This document shows positions 4,528-26,681 of a stretch of DNA of 27,159 bases, piece after piece (the stretch's first letter is position 1; the number at the start of each line of letters is the position of its first letter). Location of the stretch: IMG/VR virus record IMGVR_UViG_3300047510_003064, positions 1 through 27,159 of that record, one strand, 5' to 3'. A model generated the notes under the pieces. That model made no database searches. It had not been told where the DNA came from and saw only the letters and a list, made by a program, of their open reading frames with translations. Made by a program: the position numbers and the translations under genes. The DNA is from a virus.

Positions 4528-4555
4528 TTGCAACTCTATCCTGAACCCTCACTCT
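4528..4555 (+). promoter_or_regulatory. near-leaderless promoter for the 4564 gene
   Basis: TTGCAA (4528-4533), 16 bp, CACTCT (4550-4555), then 8 bp to the ATG at 4564. Confidence 0.6.
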
Positions 4556-4563
4556 CTCCTCTG

Positions 4564-4818
4564 ATGAATAACACTACCTCTCCCGAACTGTTCAAGCTCT
4601 CTATCGGTGACCGCGACTTTGTCCCGATGACTCTGGAAGCCGTCGAGCGCCAGCTTTACCTCGCTTGGCCGGATGTCTGGTGCAAGAAGGAGGAGCGGAT
4701 GTTGCAAGTGGATGACTTCCAAGAACTTATGGAATACTGGGATGAAAAGTCCAAGTGCTGGGAAATCCTTAACCCCGAGGACGGGGTTAGCGTCTGGGCC
4801 TTCTTTAAGAAGGTGTAA
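4564..4818 (+). CDS. tandem paralogue A, 84 aa
   Basis: The product (MNNTTSPELFKLSIGDRDFV...) is a clear paralogue of the protein at 5309-5542. They share the N-terminal FKLSIGD(R/K)D and PMTL segments, a central W-P-D, and an almost identical C-terminus ending GVSVWAFFKKV. The copy here carries about 7 extra residues in the middle (WCKKEERMLQVDD). The first ATG after the promoter was chosen. The composition suggests a small soluble alpha/beta protein. The same hairpin plus palindromic element follows both copies, so a whole unit was duplicated. Function unknown. Confidence 0.7.
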   Translation: MNNTTSPELFKLSIGDRDFVPMTLEAVERQLYLAWPDVWCKKEERMLQVDDFQELMEYWDEKSKCWEILNPEDGVSVWAFFKKV

Positions 4819-5308: not shown

Positions 5309-5542
5309 ATGAATACCTCTGCCTCTCCCGAAATGTTCAAGCTCTCTATCGGTGATAAGGACTATGCTCCGATGACTCTCGACCGAGTCGAGGCGAACCT
5401 TTACGTTAATTGGCCTGACGAGTCCGACATCTGGGAGACCTATCCCGATGGTATCTTTGAGTTCTTCGACGAGAAGAACCAGCATTGGGAAATCCTTGGG
5501 CCTGATGGTGTTAGCGTCTGGGCCTTCTTCAAGAAAGTGTAA
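5309..5542 (+). CDS. tandem paralogue B, 77 aa
   Basis: This is the second copy of the protein encoded at 4564-4818: FKLSIGDKDYAPMTL near the N-terminus, then W-P-D and an FFDEKNQHWEILG segment, ending GVSVWAFFKKV. The aligned cores show many substitutions, so the duplication is not recent. It lies 20 bp after the 5073 gene without a promoter of its own. Two related copies in one short stretch suggest dosage, or different partners for the same fold. Function unknown. Confidence 0.7.
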   Translation: MNTSASPEMFKLSIGDKDYAPMTLDRVEANLYVNWPDESDIWETYPDGIFEFFDEKNQHWEILGPDGVSVWAFFKKV

Positions 5543-17844: not shown

Positions 17845-17922
17845 AAATTGGTGGTGTAAAATTAAAAATTGGTGGAGGTAGAGGGAGTCGAACCCTCAAA
17901 GTTTTTGAAACTAACGGATTTT

Positions 17923-18844
17923 CTTACCACTATAACTTTCGTTACCTCTTTTGAGTTTGTGGTCTGGACTATACCTTAATCATGGCTGTTATTCCATATT
18001 TTAAGCACCATTTTCTCACTGCGTTATCAGAAACATTAAAAAATTCACCAACTTTGGTAAATGATTTATAAATCTTAAACGCTTCAAGAATTTCTGGAAC
18101 TTTTGGAATATTTTCTGAATTATGGTCTCTGTAACATTTAGCGCAACAATATATATTTTTTTTTGATTTTATAATCGATTCGCACGCTAAACATTTTTTA
18201 ACAATTAATTCTTTGTCAGCTTTAGATTTACCGTGTCTAGTCTCTGCTCCTTCATTCAGATTATGAATGCTTGGGTCAGGATTACCAGTTAGTGAGGCTT
18301 CCCTGAGTTTACGGTATTCTACTGCTTTCATTTCTGAAAGCGCACTCTTTTTATTTCTGCCGCGATAATAGTCGGTTTGAGCGTGACAATTTGGACATAG
18401 TAGCTTTAAATTTTCTAATCTATTATCCGTATTGACACCGTTTGAATGTTCTAGTTCTAAAGGAATTTTTTTATTCATCCATTCTGTATTGTTGCAGTTT
18501 TCGCATTTATGCTGCTTTAATCCTTCTTTTATCAACCTCGGTTTTAATTTTGAAGATTGATAGTTAGAATTTTCAACAAGAATGTCTGATAAAGCTATTC
18601 GTTTGCGAACTGGAATATCCCATCCTTTTCTCCAACCTTGACCAGTAAAATGCGAAGCATCTAATTCAAAATCTTTAATCTTACGATTAACGATTTTATA
18701 ATTTCCTCCGCACGGTCTTATTCCTATTTGTCTACAAACTGCCGCGACAGAAAAATTATCTTTAACAGCTTTTTCGAATTCTTCTTTGGTATATTTCATA
18801 TAAATATATTACACAAGAATCGAACTGAAAAGACAATTATCTAA
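17923..18844 (-). ncRNA. group I intron (922 nt) in tRNA-Leu(UAA)
   Basis: The intron follows a U at the 5' splice site and ends with G (omega-G) before AAAATCCG. Core elements in order on the minus strand: AAACTCAGGGAAGCCT (18310-18295), GGTAATCCTGACCCAAGC (18286-18269; P4/P6 side, Q-like), GGAGCAGAGACTAGAC (18250-18235; P6/P7, R-like) and AAGGTATAGTCC (17977-17966; P7 3' strand, S-like). TAGTC in the S-like element pairs with GACTA in the R-like one. These match the tRNA-Leu intron class of cyanobacteria. A canonical P1 with a U-G splice-site pair is not clear; CAGTTCG (18826-18820) pairs with CGGACT of the exon except at the last base. Confidence 0.9.
17969..18799 (-). CDS. intron-encoded HNH endonuclease overlapping the ribozyme core
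   Basis: The 276-residue protein has three parts. Residues 1-160 carry an HTH-like N-terminus (VAAVCRQIGI) and an HNH nuclease domain with zinc pairs CENC (99-102) and CPNC (135-138), the LEH motif at 116-118, Asn130 and His139. Residues about 163-190 (RKLREASLTGNPDPS...EGAETR) are the translation of the intron catalytic core. Residues 200-276 carry a second Cys cluster (CLAC, CCAKC) and an HTH-like end (VGEFFNVSDNAVRKW). The stop codon TAG lies inside the P7 3' strand. It is probably a homing endonuclease that cuts intronless tRNA-Leu genes. ATG 18799 is 45 nt into the intron. Confidence 0.88.
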   Translation of the reverse strand: MKYTKEEFEKAVKDNFSVAAVCRQIGIRPCGGNYKIVNRKIKDFELDASHFTGQGWRKGWDIPVRKRIALSDILVENSNYQSSKLKPRLIKEGLKQHKCENCNNTEWMNKKIPLELEHSNGVNTDNRLENLKLLCPNCHAQTDYYRGRNKKSALSEMKAVEYRKLREASLTGNPDPSIHNLNEGAETRHGKSKADKELIVKKCLACESIIKSKKNIYCCAKCYRDHNSENIPKVPEILEAFKIYKSFTKVGEFFNVSDNAVRKWCLKYGITAMIKV

Positions 18845-18927
18845 AAGTCCGTTGCGTTTACCAATTTCGCCATACCTCCATAAATTTTCAATGAACAACT
18901 TAAACCTATATACCGCCCATCAACAAG

Positions 18928-19509
18928 TCAAGACCTTTCAGCTAGAAAAATATTATTCTCGATCAGAAGATTTTTCAATCTAGCTCTTGCCCGAAAAGCT
19001 TTTACTTTTACGCTAGATTGCGTCCATCCAGTCAAGGCGGCGATCTCTTCGCTGTTTTTCTGCTCTAAATAAAATAAGCGAATTACTGTTTGATCCGTAA
19101 GCTTTAGTTTAGAAATAAAACTATAAATAATATCGGAGTCTACTGAAAGACCTTTCGGAGATTCGGCCTGCTGATCTAGAAGATTACTTTCAACAGCTTC
19201 TGCTTCAGTCTCTGACATATCTGCCCACCTGTATTCTGGTCTGCGCTTTTGATAGCGCAAGGCATCGATGCAAGTCGAGACAGCAACGCGAGAAACCCAG
19301 TGATGAAAAGGAACTTCTTTCTTGTACTGCTTCAGCCTTACGAAAACCTTTTTGTAAACTTCTTGAATTAAGTCTTCTTCTGCTGCTCGCCAAGGGCGGC
19401 GAGCCCGCACAATTTTAGTAACCATTGGCTGAAGGTATTCAACCAATTCACGCGCAGCTTCTTGGTTGCCCTTGCGAACTTTTGAAAGACAGGCTGCAAC
19501 GTTATTCAT
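18928..19509 (-). CDS. ECF-like sigma-70 family factor
   Basis: The 193-residue protein has sigma region 2 at about 40-95, with EEDLIQEVYKKVFVRLKQY, the PFHHWVSRVAVSTCIDALR block and a basic end KRRPEYRW. Region 4 lies at about 136-183, with LKLTDQTVIRLFYLEQKNSE and an HTH ALTGWTQSSVKVKAFRARAR. There is no region 1.1 or 3, so it is of the ECF type, with normal length. It directs RNA polymerase to specific promoters. A phage-borne copy may control a gene class of its own, perhaps the recurrent promoters seen here (inference; those boxes also look sigma-A-like). Its start overlaps the 51-aa gene. Confidence 0.85.
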   Translation of the reverse strand: MNNVAACLSKVRKGNQEAARELVEYLQPMVTKIVRARRPWRAAEEDLIQEVYKKVFVRLKQYKKEVPFHHWVSRVAVSTCIDALRYQKRRPEYRWADMSETEAEAVESNLLDQQAESPKGLSVDSDIIYSFISKLKLTDQTVIRLFYLEQKNSEEIAALTGWTQSSVKVKAFRARARLKNLLIENNIFLAERS

Positions 19510-20324: not shown

Positions 20325-20476
20325 GATTTCTCCTTTGTCGCAGCGTTATTCTTCTCCATCTCGCGCAACGTCAGTAGTTTGTGAGCGCATCCGCCAACCA
20401 TAATTCCAACCAGAAAAGCCAAAACGATTGTCGCCCAAATGCATCTGAAAAAAGCGCGATGGTCGAAATCAGTCAC
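20321..20476 (-). CDS. 51-aa single-TM protein, GTG start
   Basis: GTG at 20476 lies about 8 nt after AAAGGAG and overlaps the stop of the pentapeptide gene (GTGA). The product is (M)TDFDHRAFFRCIWATIVLA, one TM segment (IVLAFLVGIMVGG, about 16-28), then CAHKLLTLREMEKNNAATK. A longer upstream frame is open, but that part is an out-of-frame reading of the pentapeptide gene. Probably a small inner-membrane protein of unknown role. Confidence 0.6.
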   Translation of the reverse strand: MTDFDHRAFFRCIWATIVLAFLVGIMVGGCAHKLLTLREMEKNNAATKEKS

Positions 20477-21261
20477 GGCTGCTCCTTTCGTGCGGCGTCG
20501 ATAGCGGCGACGATAAAGTCGCGTGCTAGCTTGCGGGTTCTCTTGTAGCGTTCCTCGCACTTGTCGATGTAAACATCTAGCTCGGCAAGTGTGCCAGCAA
20601 AGCAGCCGCAGAACAGCCACAGCTCTTCAGCGATCACTACGCCAGATAGCTGTCGTCCTCTCTCGCCGTGTGCATCAAACGAGCATTGTGCATAGCGTAG
20701 GCCAGTCGCCCCGCTCATGTCGGCCCAGCTCATGTCGGCCCCGCGCAGGTTGGCCCCGCTCATGTCGGCCCCGCGCAGGTTGGCCCCGCTCAGGTTGGCC
20801 CGACTCATGTCGGCCCCGCGCAGTTTGGCCCTGCTCAGGTTGGCCCCGCTCAGATCGGCCCCGCGCAGTTTGGCCCTGCTCAGGTTGGTCCAGCTCAGGT
20901 TGGCCCCGCTCAGGTTGGCCCGACTCATGTTGGCCCCGCTCAGATCGGCCCCGAGCAGGTTGGCCCGACTCATGTCGGCCCCGCGCAGGTTGGCCCGACT
21001 CAGGTTGGCCCCGCTCAGGTCGGCCCGACTCAGGTTGGCCCCGCTCAGATCGGCCCCGCGCAGGTTGGCCCTGCTCAGGTTGGACCCGCTCAGGTCGGCC
21101 CCGCTCAGGTTGGCCCAGCTCAGGTCGGCCCCGCTCAGGTTGGCCCGACTCATGTCGGCCCCGCGCAGATCGGCCCCGCGCAGGTTGGCGCATTTGCCGC
21201 CATTTCCGGTGAGCCACAATGCGTGGTCTGCCAAGATGCGTTTCAATTCGTCAGAGTTCAC
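20473..21261 (-). CDS. pentapeptide-repeat protein, 262 aa, GTG start
   Basis: A short N-terminal segment ends in GNGGKC (residues 19-24), then 32 consecutive pentapeptides of the A(D/N/K)(L/M)xx type fill residues 25-184. They predict a right-handed quadrilateral beta-helix of about eight coils. The C-terminal domain (SFDAHGERGRQLSGVVIAEE, then LWLFCGCFAGTLAELDVYI) is of a kind seen after pentapeptide repeats in phages. Long versions such as MfpA/Qnr mimic DNA and bind gyrase; there is no evidence for this here. GTG at 21261 follows AAGGAGGTG. The end AAIDAARKEQP resembles the tails of two neighbours. Confidence 0.88.
   Translation of the reverse strand: MNSDELKRILADHALWLTGNGGKCANLRGADLRGADMSRANLSGADLSWANLSGADLSGSNLSRANLRGADLSGANLSRADLSGANLSRANLRGADMSRANLLGADLSGANMSRANLSGANLSWTNLSRAKLRGADLSGANLSRAKLRGADMSRANLSGANLRGADMSGANLRGADMSWADMSGATGLRYAQCSFDAHGERGRQLSGVVIAEELWLFCGCFAGTLAELDVYIDKCEERYKRTRKLARDFIVAAIDAARKEQP
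20710..21189 (-). repeat. 15-bp tandem repeats coding for pentapeptides
   Basis: About 32 tandem 15-bp units, on the plus strand variations of CCCGCTCAGGTTGGC and CGACTCATGTCGGCC. Many neighbouring units are nearly identical at the DNA level, which suggests expansion and contraction by slippage or recombination. An opposite-strand frame is open here only because of the repeat. Confidence 0.85.
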
Positions 21262-26211: not shown

Positions 26212-26625
26212 ATGGAAATTAGTCAAGAAGCAGTAAACAAATATATCTGTAGGCACTGCAAGGAAGAAACTGACGACTTTTATCCATCTCGTATAAAAAA
26301 GAAAATTTATAGCTGCAAGAAGTGCGACGCCAAACAAGGTAAGATTTTAAGAGAGAATATCAAGCGCAAATGCGTTGAGTACAAGGGCGGCAAATGTTTT
26401 GTTTGTGGTTATAATAAATTTCAAGGCTCTCTAGACTTTCATCACGTTGACCCAAAAGAAAAAGATTTTGGCATAGCGACAATGAAAAGTAATTCTTTTG
26501 AATCTTTAAAAGAAGAGTTAGATAAGTGCGTTCTACTCTGCAAGAACTGCCATTGTGAAGTTCACGCTGGCTTAATTGATCTGAATAAAATTGGTGGTAC
26601 TGCTGGGGATCGAACCCAGTCCTAG
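26212..26625 (+). CDS. free-standing HNH endonuclease, 137 aa
   Basis: The product has a Cys-rich N-terminus (CRHC at 13-16, CKKC at 36-39), then CFVCG (about 62-66), the HNH core LDFHHVDPKEKDF (about 73-85) and a final CKNCHCEVH. This is the zinc-linked HNH type typical of phage homing endonucleases. It is on the opposite strand to its neighbours, with a different base composition, as expected of a mobile gene. Its last codons run antisense into the tRNA-Ile gene (34-bp overlap), so the C-terminus GGTAGDRTQS comes from tRNA sequence. The original end may have been lost on insertion. Confidence 0.8.
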   Translation: MEISQEAVNKYICRHCKEETDDFYPSRIKKKIYSCKKCDAKQGKILRENIKRKCVEYKGGKCFVCGYNKFQGSLDFHHVDPKEKDFGIATMKSNSFESLKEELDKCVLLCKNCHCEVHAGLIDLNKIGGTAGDRTQS

Positions 26626-26681
26626 CGGTTATCTACCGAAATGCTTATAAGGCATCTTGCTCTACCGTGAGCTACAGTACC
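26592..26681 (-). tRNA. tRNA-Ile(UAU) with hairpin insertion in variable region
   Basis: 90 nt with encoded CCA. Acceptor GGTACTG/CAGTACC, D arm GCTC-ACGGTA-GAGC, anticodon stem GATGC/GCATT (one G-T pair), loop CTTATAA with anticodon TAT, T arm CTGGG-TTCGATC-CCCAG. The variable region is about 20 nt, with a CGGT-AGATA-ACCG hairpin, whereas tRNA-Ile normally has 5. Removing about 15 nt leaves a normal class I tRNA. Confidence 0.85.

Follow-up and report, generated by a model that had tools for sequence, protein, structure and literature searches.

The window analysed here, which is the whole of a 27,159-bp IMG/VR virus record, contains a tRNA-Leu(UAA) gene interrupted by what we consider, with a probability of roughly 0.85, to be a mobile IC3-like group I intron whose ribozyme core is enclosed by a homing-type HNH gene. 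One frame is open from the HNH domain through the core to a C-terminal tail, the core helices are supported by covariation, both protein domains have homologues and are under selection, and the arrangement recurs in other contigs. An earlier note on this DNA had described the interrupted gene and the passage of the ORF through the core, although it missed the recurrence with its relatives, the location of the HNH half in loop L1 and of the tail in loop L8, and the fact that overlap of this kind was already known.

The Interrupted tRNA-Leu(UAA) Gene

With introns allowed, ARAGORN called tRNA-Leu(taa) at c[17870,18879] with a 922-nt intron after U34, in agreement with the insertion between anticodon positions 34 and 35 read in the earlier note; without the intron option, no tRNA was called at c[17870,18879]. 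The intron boundaries are unique, because CUU/AAAA is the sole possible 7-nt anticodon loop, and the insertion lies in the anticodon loop of tRNA-Leu(UAA), after U34, as required (Table 1). The motif at the 3' end of the intron is common to about 70 viral tRNA-Leu introns. A megablast search of the window against phages gave no match, and none of the isolated phages is a close relative. The record is possibly only part of a longer genome, so another, intact tRNA-Leu(UAA) outside it cannot be ruled out. A sigma-70/ECF-type sigma factor gene (18928-19509, minus strand; Pfam Sigma70_r2, r4_2) lies immediately upstream of the interrupted tRNA gene.

Table 1. Coordinates of the tRNA-Leu(UAA) gene, its intron and the enclosing ORF in the window.
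Feature	Position	Strand	Evidence
5' exon of tRNA-Leu(UAA), ends at U34	18845..18879	-	ARAGORN with introns
Group I intron, 922 nt, ends in omega-G (17923)	17923..18844	-	ARAGORN with introns; 3' end motif
Loop L1 insert: 45-nt leader and HNH-domain coding sequence (residues 1-150)	18348..18844	-	R1 guide position
HNH endonuclease ORF, 276 aa, stop UAG inside P7 3' strand	17969..18799	-	phrog_10822, E 4.2e-57, residues 2-264
Internal guide sequence GAGU, pairs with exon ACUU (U34.G), codons 151-152	18344..18347	-	R1; conserved in compact introns
P2 hairpin, GAAA tetraloop	18324..18341	-	R1, pair counts
P3-P4-P5-P6-P7(5')-P3' core	18229..18316	-	R1, 91 bits, E 5.6e-23; covariation
P3	18316-18311/18234-18229	-	R1, covariation
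P4	18306-18301/18281-18276	-	R1, covariation
P5	18298-18296/18286-18284	-	R1, covariation
P6	18269-18265/18257-18253	-	R1, covariation
P7 5' strand	18242-18238	-	R1, covariation
P8 5' strand (18228-18225 and 18220-18217)	18217..18228	-	Pair counts
Loop L8 insert: Cys4/HTH C-terminal domain coding, about residues 196-270	17989..18216	-	Tail match, E 1e-7
P8 3' strand (17988-17985 and 17981-17978), codes residues 271-274	17978..17988	-	Pair counts
P7 3' strand UAGUC, first three nt are the ORF stop codon	17967..17971	-	Sequence, pair counts
P9 domain, GAAA tetraloop L9	17927..17962	-	Sequence, pair counts
3' exon of tRNA-Leu(UAA), starts at A35, CCA encoded	17870..17922	-	ARAGORN with introns

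The Group I Ribozyme Core

Support for the group I intron proposed in the earlier note was weak from the general Rfam model and strong from a dedicated one. At the gathering score, Rfam gave no intron match; RF00028 reached 21.1 bits on the locus (gathering score 50; E 0.0074 on 1 kb), and on the window's own record it is too insensitive with split cores. This low score is probably due to the two coding inserts that split the intron, and the gathering score is a cut-off belonging to a general model rather than a structural criterion that defines such introns. A pattern taken from the intron 3' end (TAGTCC..GGTAAGAAAATCC) led to about 80 viral contigs, most of which carry a tRNA-Leu(UAA) with a compact ORF-less intron of 190-220 nt. 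The covariance model R1, built on 31 compact phage tRNA-Leu intron cores with the window left out, matches the window once, at 18347-18226 on the minus strand, over all 118 positions; therefore the core is real and, together with the ARAGORN call, the identification of a group I intron in tRNA-Leu(UAA) holds.

The P3-P4-P5-P6-P7-P8 core expected of an IC3-like tRNA-Leu intron is present in the R1 match and the pair counts, and so are the U.G pair at the 5' splice site (exon CUU against guide GAG) and the terminal G (..GUAAG/AAAA). A guide sequence was also sought within the 45 nt that follow the 5' splice site, where no U.G partner fits; the conserved GAGU beside P2 does fit. Since this guide, at 18347 directly before P2, pairs with exon ACUU, the 497 nt back to the 5' splice site constitute loop L1.

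Group I introns of the compact, ORF-less kind occur commonly in viral contigs, in phage tRNA-Leu(UAA) genes (L017-L097; 36 distinct cores), and one 12-kb viral locus (L091) contains three matches to the intron-core model.

Layout of the ORF and Its Overlap with the Core

The ORF starts at intron nt 46 and ends with a UAG formed by the first three nucleotides of the P7 3' strand, which confirms the coordinates 18799-17969, the passage through the core and the stop in P7 described before. The P4-P6-P7 overlap described there was also correct, although its extent was too small, because the guide sequence, P2, P3 and P8 are overlapped as well. Thus, the ORF shares about 151 nt with P1 (guide strand), P2, P3, P4, P5, P6, P7 and P8, divided into 131 nt from the guide sequence to the P8 5' strand and 20 nt from the P8 3' strand to the stop, and these helices code for residues about 151-195 and 271-276.

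No convincing Shine-Dalgarno sequence or promoter was found ahead of the window ORF, and promoter consensus matches in L1 of the window were no better than in shuffles. Of 32 relatives, 11 carry a Bacteroidota-type TAnnTTTG motif in L1, against 1.6 expected; the motif is absent from the window. As a separate observation, the leader at 18844-18800 (minus strand) in L1 contains a T-loop-like string, GTTCGATTC, which has a similar counterpart in L116 and may be what is left of a tRNA 3' half.

The HNH Protein and Its Free-Standing Relatives

In the ORF product, which matches phrog_10822 (Table 1), H118, N130, H139, C99, C135 and C138 are invariant among 18 homologues and C102 is present in at least 90%, so that it has the H-N-H catalytic residues and Cys pairs required of an HNH homing endonuclease. 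Many of its homologues in isolated phages adjoin tRNA genes. In the two-domain free-standing homologues, the same HNH domain is connected to the same Cys4/HTH tail by a linker of variable length, which is almost lacking in some of them. Searched by itself, the tail matches the corresponding part of other HNH proteins (best E 1e-7), and it also follows GIY-YIG domains, e.g., in EFDG1.

In the AlphaFold2 model, pLDDT is below 50 at residues 149-198, the stretch coded by the core, and ten-residue means in the flanking domains are mostly near 90, with low spots of 57-65 around residues 51-70 and of 73-82 in the N-terminal part of the tail. The core-coded linker is thus predicted to be disordered, and free-standing relatives use an unrelated, shorter linker sequence. 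This predicted disorder sustains the proposal that the core codes for an inter-domain linker, whose limits should be placed at about residues 151-195 instead of 163-190. A PDB sequence search and a Foldseek search gave no significant match.

Free-standing two-domain HNH genes adjoin both intron-less tRNA-Leu(UAA) genes (L107, L110, L114, L120) and tRNA-Leu genes with compact introns (L212, L213, L216, L225). At two further loci (L105, L106), an orphan Cys4/HTH tail without an HNH domain adjoins a tRNA-Leu(taa) gene.

Recurrence of the Arrangement

A first protein scan of viral contigs returned one distant locus. Relatives were then collected in two scans, one with the tail domain and one with the composite proteins, which gave six distinct composites: the window, L115, L116, L119, L189 and L265. 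The five beyond the window, four of them viral and one from a bacterial MAG, have the HNH domain in L1, the core, and the tail in L8 in one frame; therefore, the arrangement is not a quirk of assembly or annotation. Three of them are called as interrupted tRNA-Leu(taa), with introns of 967 nt (L115), 964 nt (L116, identical in three records) and 993 nt (L119). ARAGORN calls an interrupted tRNA-Ser at L265, in a Candidatus Onthovivens MAG, and no tRNA at L189; L265 also scores lower (60.5 bits), and the tRNA identity at these two loci is less certain.

On the HNH tree, where L119 groups with a free-standing gene (100/95), the composite label must change two or more times, and the tail tree lacks resolution. 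As neither tree resolves one clade, a single origin of the composites has not been demonstrated, and repeated origin or domain exchange remain open. Short matches to free-standing genes lie at both ends of the composites: ATGGTGAA is shared by L191 and the P8 3' strand, and AATAAAAAGAGT by L209 and the guide-sequence region. Joining by microhomology is suggested by such matches, without being demonstrated. In L189, TAAAATACCGTAAAATTC, between the 5' splice site and the ORF start, resembles the P3 region of the same intron (shuffle p 0.003). A decayed second core copy in L1 was considered, but the match is no more than suggestive and was obtained only at L189, one of six loci tested, so that no such copy is claimed; the value for L265 is disregarded, because a wrong segment had been used for it.

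Selection on the Protein and a Graded Series at One Site

Among composite pairs, pN/pS is 0.16-0.57 in the HNH domain, 0.38-0.93 in the tail and 0.14-1.02, mostly 0.8-1.0, in the core. These ratios are rough, because many pairs are near saturation at synonymous sites; on these sequence comparisons, the HNH domain and the tail are both under purifying selection. The core values may be read as a sequence dictated by the RNA, in which the protein would need mainly an open frame.

Overlap between endonuclease ORFs and intron cores is known, and has been named core creep (Edgell et al. 2011, PMC3073962; also PMC3984707). It could be argued that an HNH ORF in L1 lost its stop codon and drifted through the core, everything after the HNH domain being meaningless read-through. 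Other introns with an L1 HNH ORF at this site do stop at graded positions, which would fit stop-codon loss into the core: ahead of the guide sequence (L052), within it (L024), past P2 (L064), around P5 (L047) and near P9 (L037, a weak core match of 21.4 bits). The Bacteroidales ORFs of this type (27 introns) end in P6 or in the P7 3' strand, 24 in the same frame and 17 open to P7, and in other introns the ORF lies between P6 and P7 (L003, L070). The post-core tail nevertheless needs a further step. The Cys4/HTH domain is conserved in the window and its five relatives with pN/pS below 1, and it is homologous to the tails of free-standing enzymes, a domain that drift does not create; simple drift is, consequently, an improbable explanation for the composites.

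The Bacteroidales MAG introns (L266-L298, L312) are also tRNA-Leu introns, with an L1 HNH ORF running into P6 or to P7, and some of them have the Bacteroidota-type promoter motif in L1.

Selection on the RNA

Pairs were counted in 14 introns at this site in which the HNH frame enters the core, which is partly or wholly coding, five of them composites. Standard pairs are formed in 97.3% of 636 cells, with double compensatory changes in 29 of 48 pairs; none of 500 shuffles reached the observed level, and slid controls were 34-44% paired. In the core, pS is lower than in the flanks in all 15 composite pairs, with p <0.05 in 14, although the pairs are not independent. The frame used in the window is open through the core in 6/6 composites versus 0/36 distinct compact cores, which contain a mean of 2.5 stops, and openness is thus not intrinsic to the core. 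The covarying pairs and the depressed pS bear out the earlier suggestion that protein and ribozyme constrain the same bases.

These data also weigh against a dead or decaying intron, in which the ORF would have been kept and RNA splicing lost. The RF00028 score below the gathering threshold and the outermost P2 and P5 pairs, unpaired in several relatives, could be taken as signs of decay. However, the intron has all core helices, the splice-site U.G, the omega-G and both GAAA loops (L2 and L9), and covariation and depressed synonymous change point to selection on the RNA, which leaves this explanation very unlikely. As for a chance open frame or an assembly chimera in which an intron and the tail of a second nuclease were joined to an HNH gene, compatible with a single metagenomic record that has no close isolated-phage relative, it is already refuted by the recurrence of order, frame and site in other contigs at 52-55% protein identity.

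Proposed Mechanism

In the preferred reading, a mobile intron enclosed by its HNH gene, L1 would code for the HNH domain, the core would double as code for a flexible linker, and L8 would code for the DNA-binding tail. The same strand could have two fates: either it would fold and splice itself out, leaving tRNA-Leu(UAA), or it would be translated from the internal start in L1 to give one two-domain HNH enzyme. This enzyme would most likely cut intron-less tRNA-Leu(UAA) genes, with the intron spreading as a result. Splicing, translation through the core, cleavage target and homing are all inferred, in the absence of transcript, splicing or protein data, and the only pointer to the target and to homing is the location beside tRNA-Leu genes.

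A ribosome cannot pass through the core without unfolding it, so splicing and translation of one molecule should be mutually exclusive. This conflict would not arise if the nuclease were made from transcripts of its own, started at a promoter in L1. A more speculative proposal, which we regard as doubtful, is that each transcript acts either as tRNA precursor or as mRNA, that translating ribosomes unfold P2-P8 and block splicing, and that enclosure might have been selected for an inverse coupling between the synthesis of the endonuclease and the supply of tRNA-Leu.

Relation to Known Introns

The tRNA-Leu(UAA) IC3 introns of cyanobacteria and plastids, like the window intron, are inserted between U34 and A35, and have a small core without P5 extension, a short P1 with U.G, and GAAA loops L2 and L9; they are usually ORF-less. 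In contrast to this ORF-less state, the window intron has two coding inserts and its core within an ORF, whose translation is inferred.

In the T4 td intron with I-TevI and in other cases of core creep, the ORF of a homing endonuclease shares core-helix nucleotides, as in the window. The td intron was therefore a poor example of an ORF outside the core, which is how the earlier note had used it, since 20 nt of P6a/P7 are shared with its ORF (PMC3073962). The published overlaps range from 9 to 81 nt, and the authors warn of wrong ORF ends (PMC3073962). The overlap of about 151 nt exceeds the largest of these, in keeping with the unusual degree claimed for it in the earlier note; moreover, the known overlaps are at ORF ends, whereas nearly all of the one described here is inside the ORF, between two conserved domains, so that wrong ORF ends cannot explain it and the concern about annotation errors in large overlaps does not apply. 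The tRNA-fMet intron of Synechocystis is likewise a tRNA intron, with an endonuclease ORF in P1 and a P1/P2 overlap of 61 nt; however, its ORF belongs to another family, PD-(D/E)XK, and no passage through P3-P8 or L8 tail is listed (PMC3073962). The phrog_10822 HNH genes beside phage tRNAs, as in Agrobacterium phage Atu_ph07 and Klebsiella phage Muenster, have the same HNH and Cys4/HTH architecture, although they are free-standing and have no ribozyme between the domains.

In open-licence papers, the only ones searched, no ORF enclosing a whole core between two conserved domains was found, nor any description of phage tRNA-Leu introns. According to a 2014 review, all phage introns observed until then were in protein genes (PMC3984707); the loci described here indicate that phage tRNA genes do carry predicted group I introns. 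A catalytic RNA core serving as code between two protein domains represents a clean natural case of two selections on the same bases. At one intron site, the states found include the free-standing enzyme only, the ORF-less intron only, both side by side, an ORF in L1, an ORF into the core and an ORF enclosing it; with this range, both the core-creep idea and the question of how mobile introns arose can be tested directly.

Other Genes in the Window

A second free-standing HNH ORF, unrelated to the first (phrog_2255; 26212-26625, plus strand), runs antisense with its 3' end into a tRNA-Ile gene (26592-26681, minus strand). A pentapeptide-repeat-like protein with ADLSGANL repeats is encoded at 20473-21261 (minus strand), and two adjacent paralogous small ORFs (..FKLSIGD..GVSVWAFFKKV) lie at 4528-4818 and 5309-5542 (plus strand).
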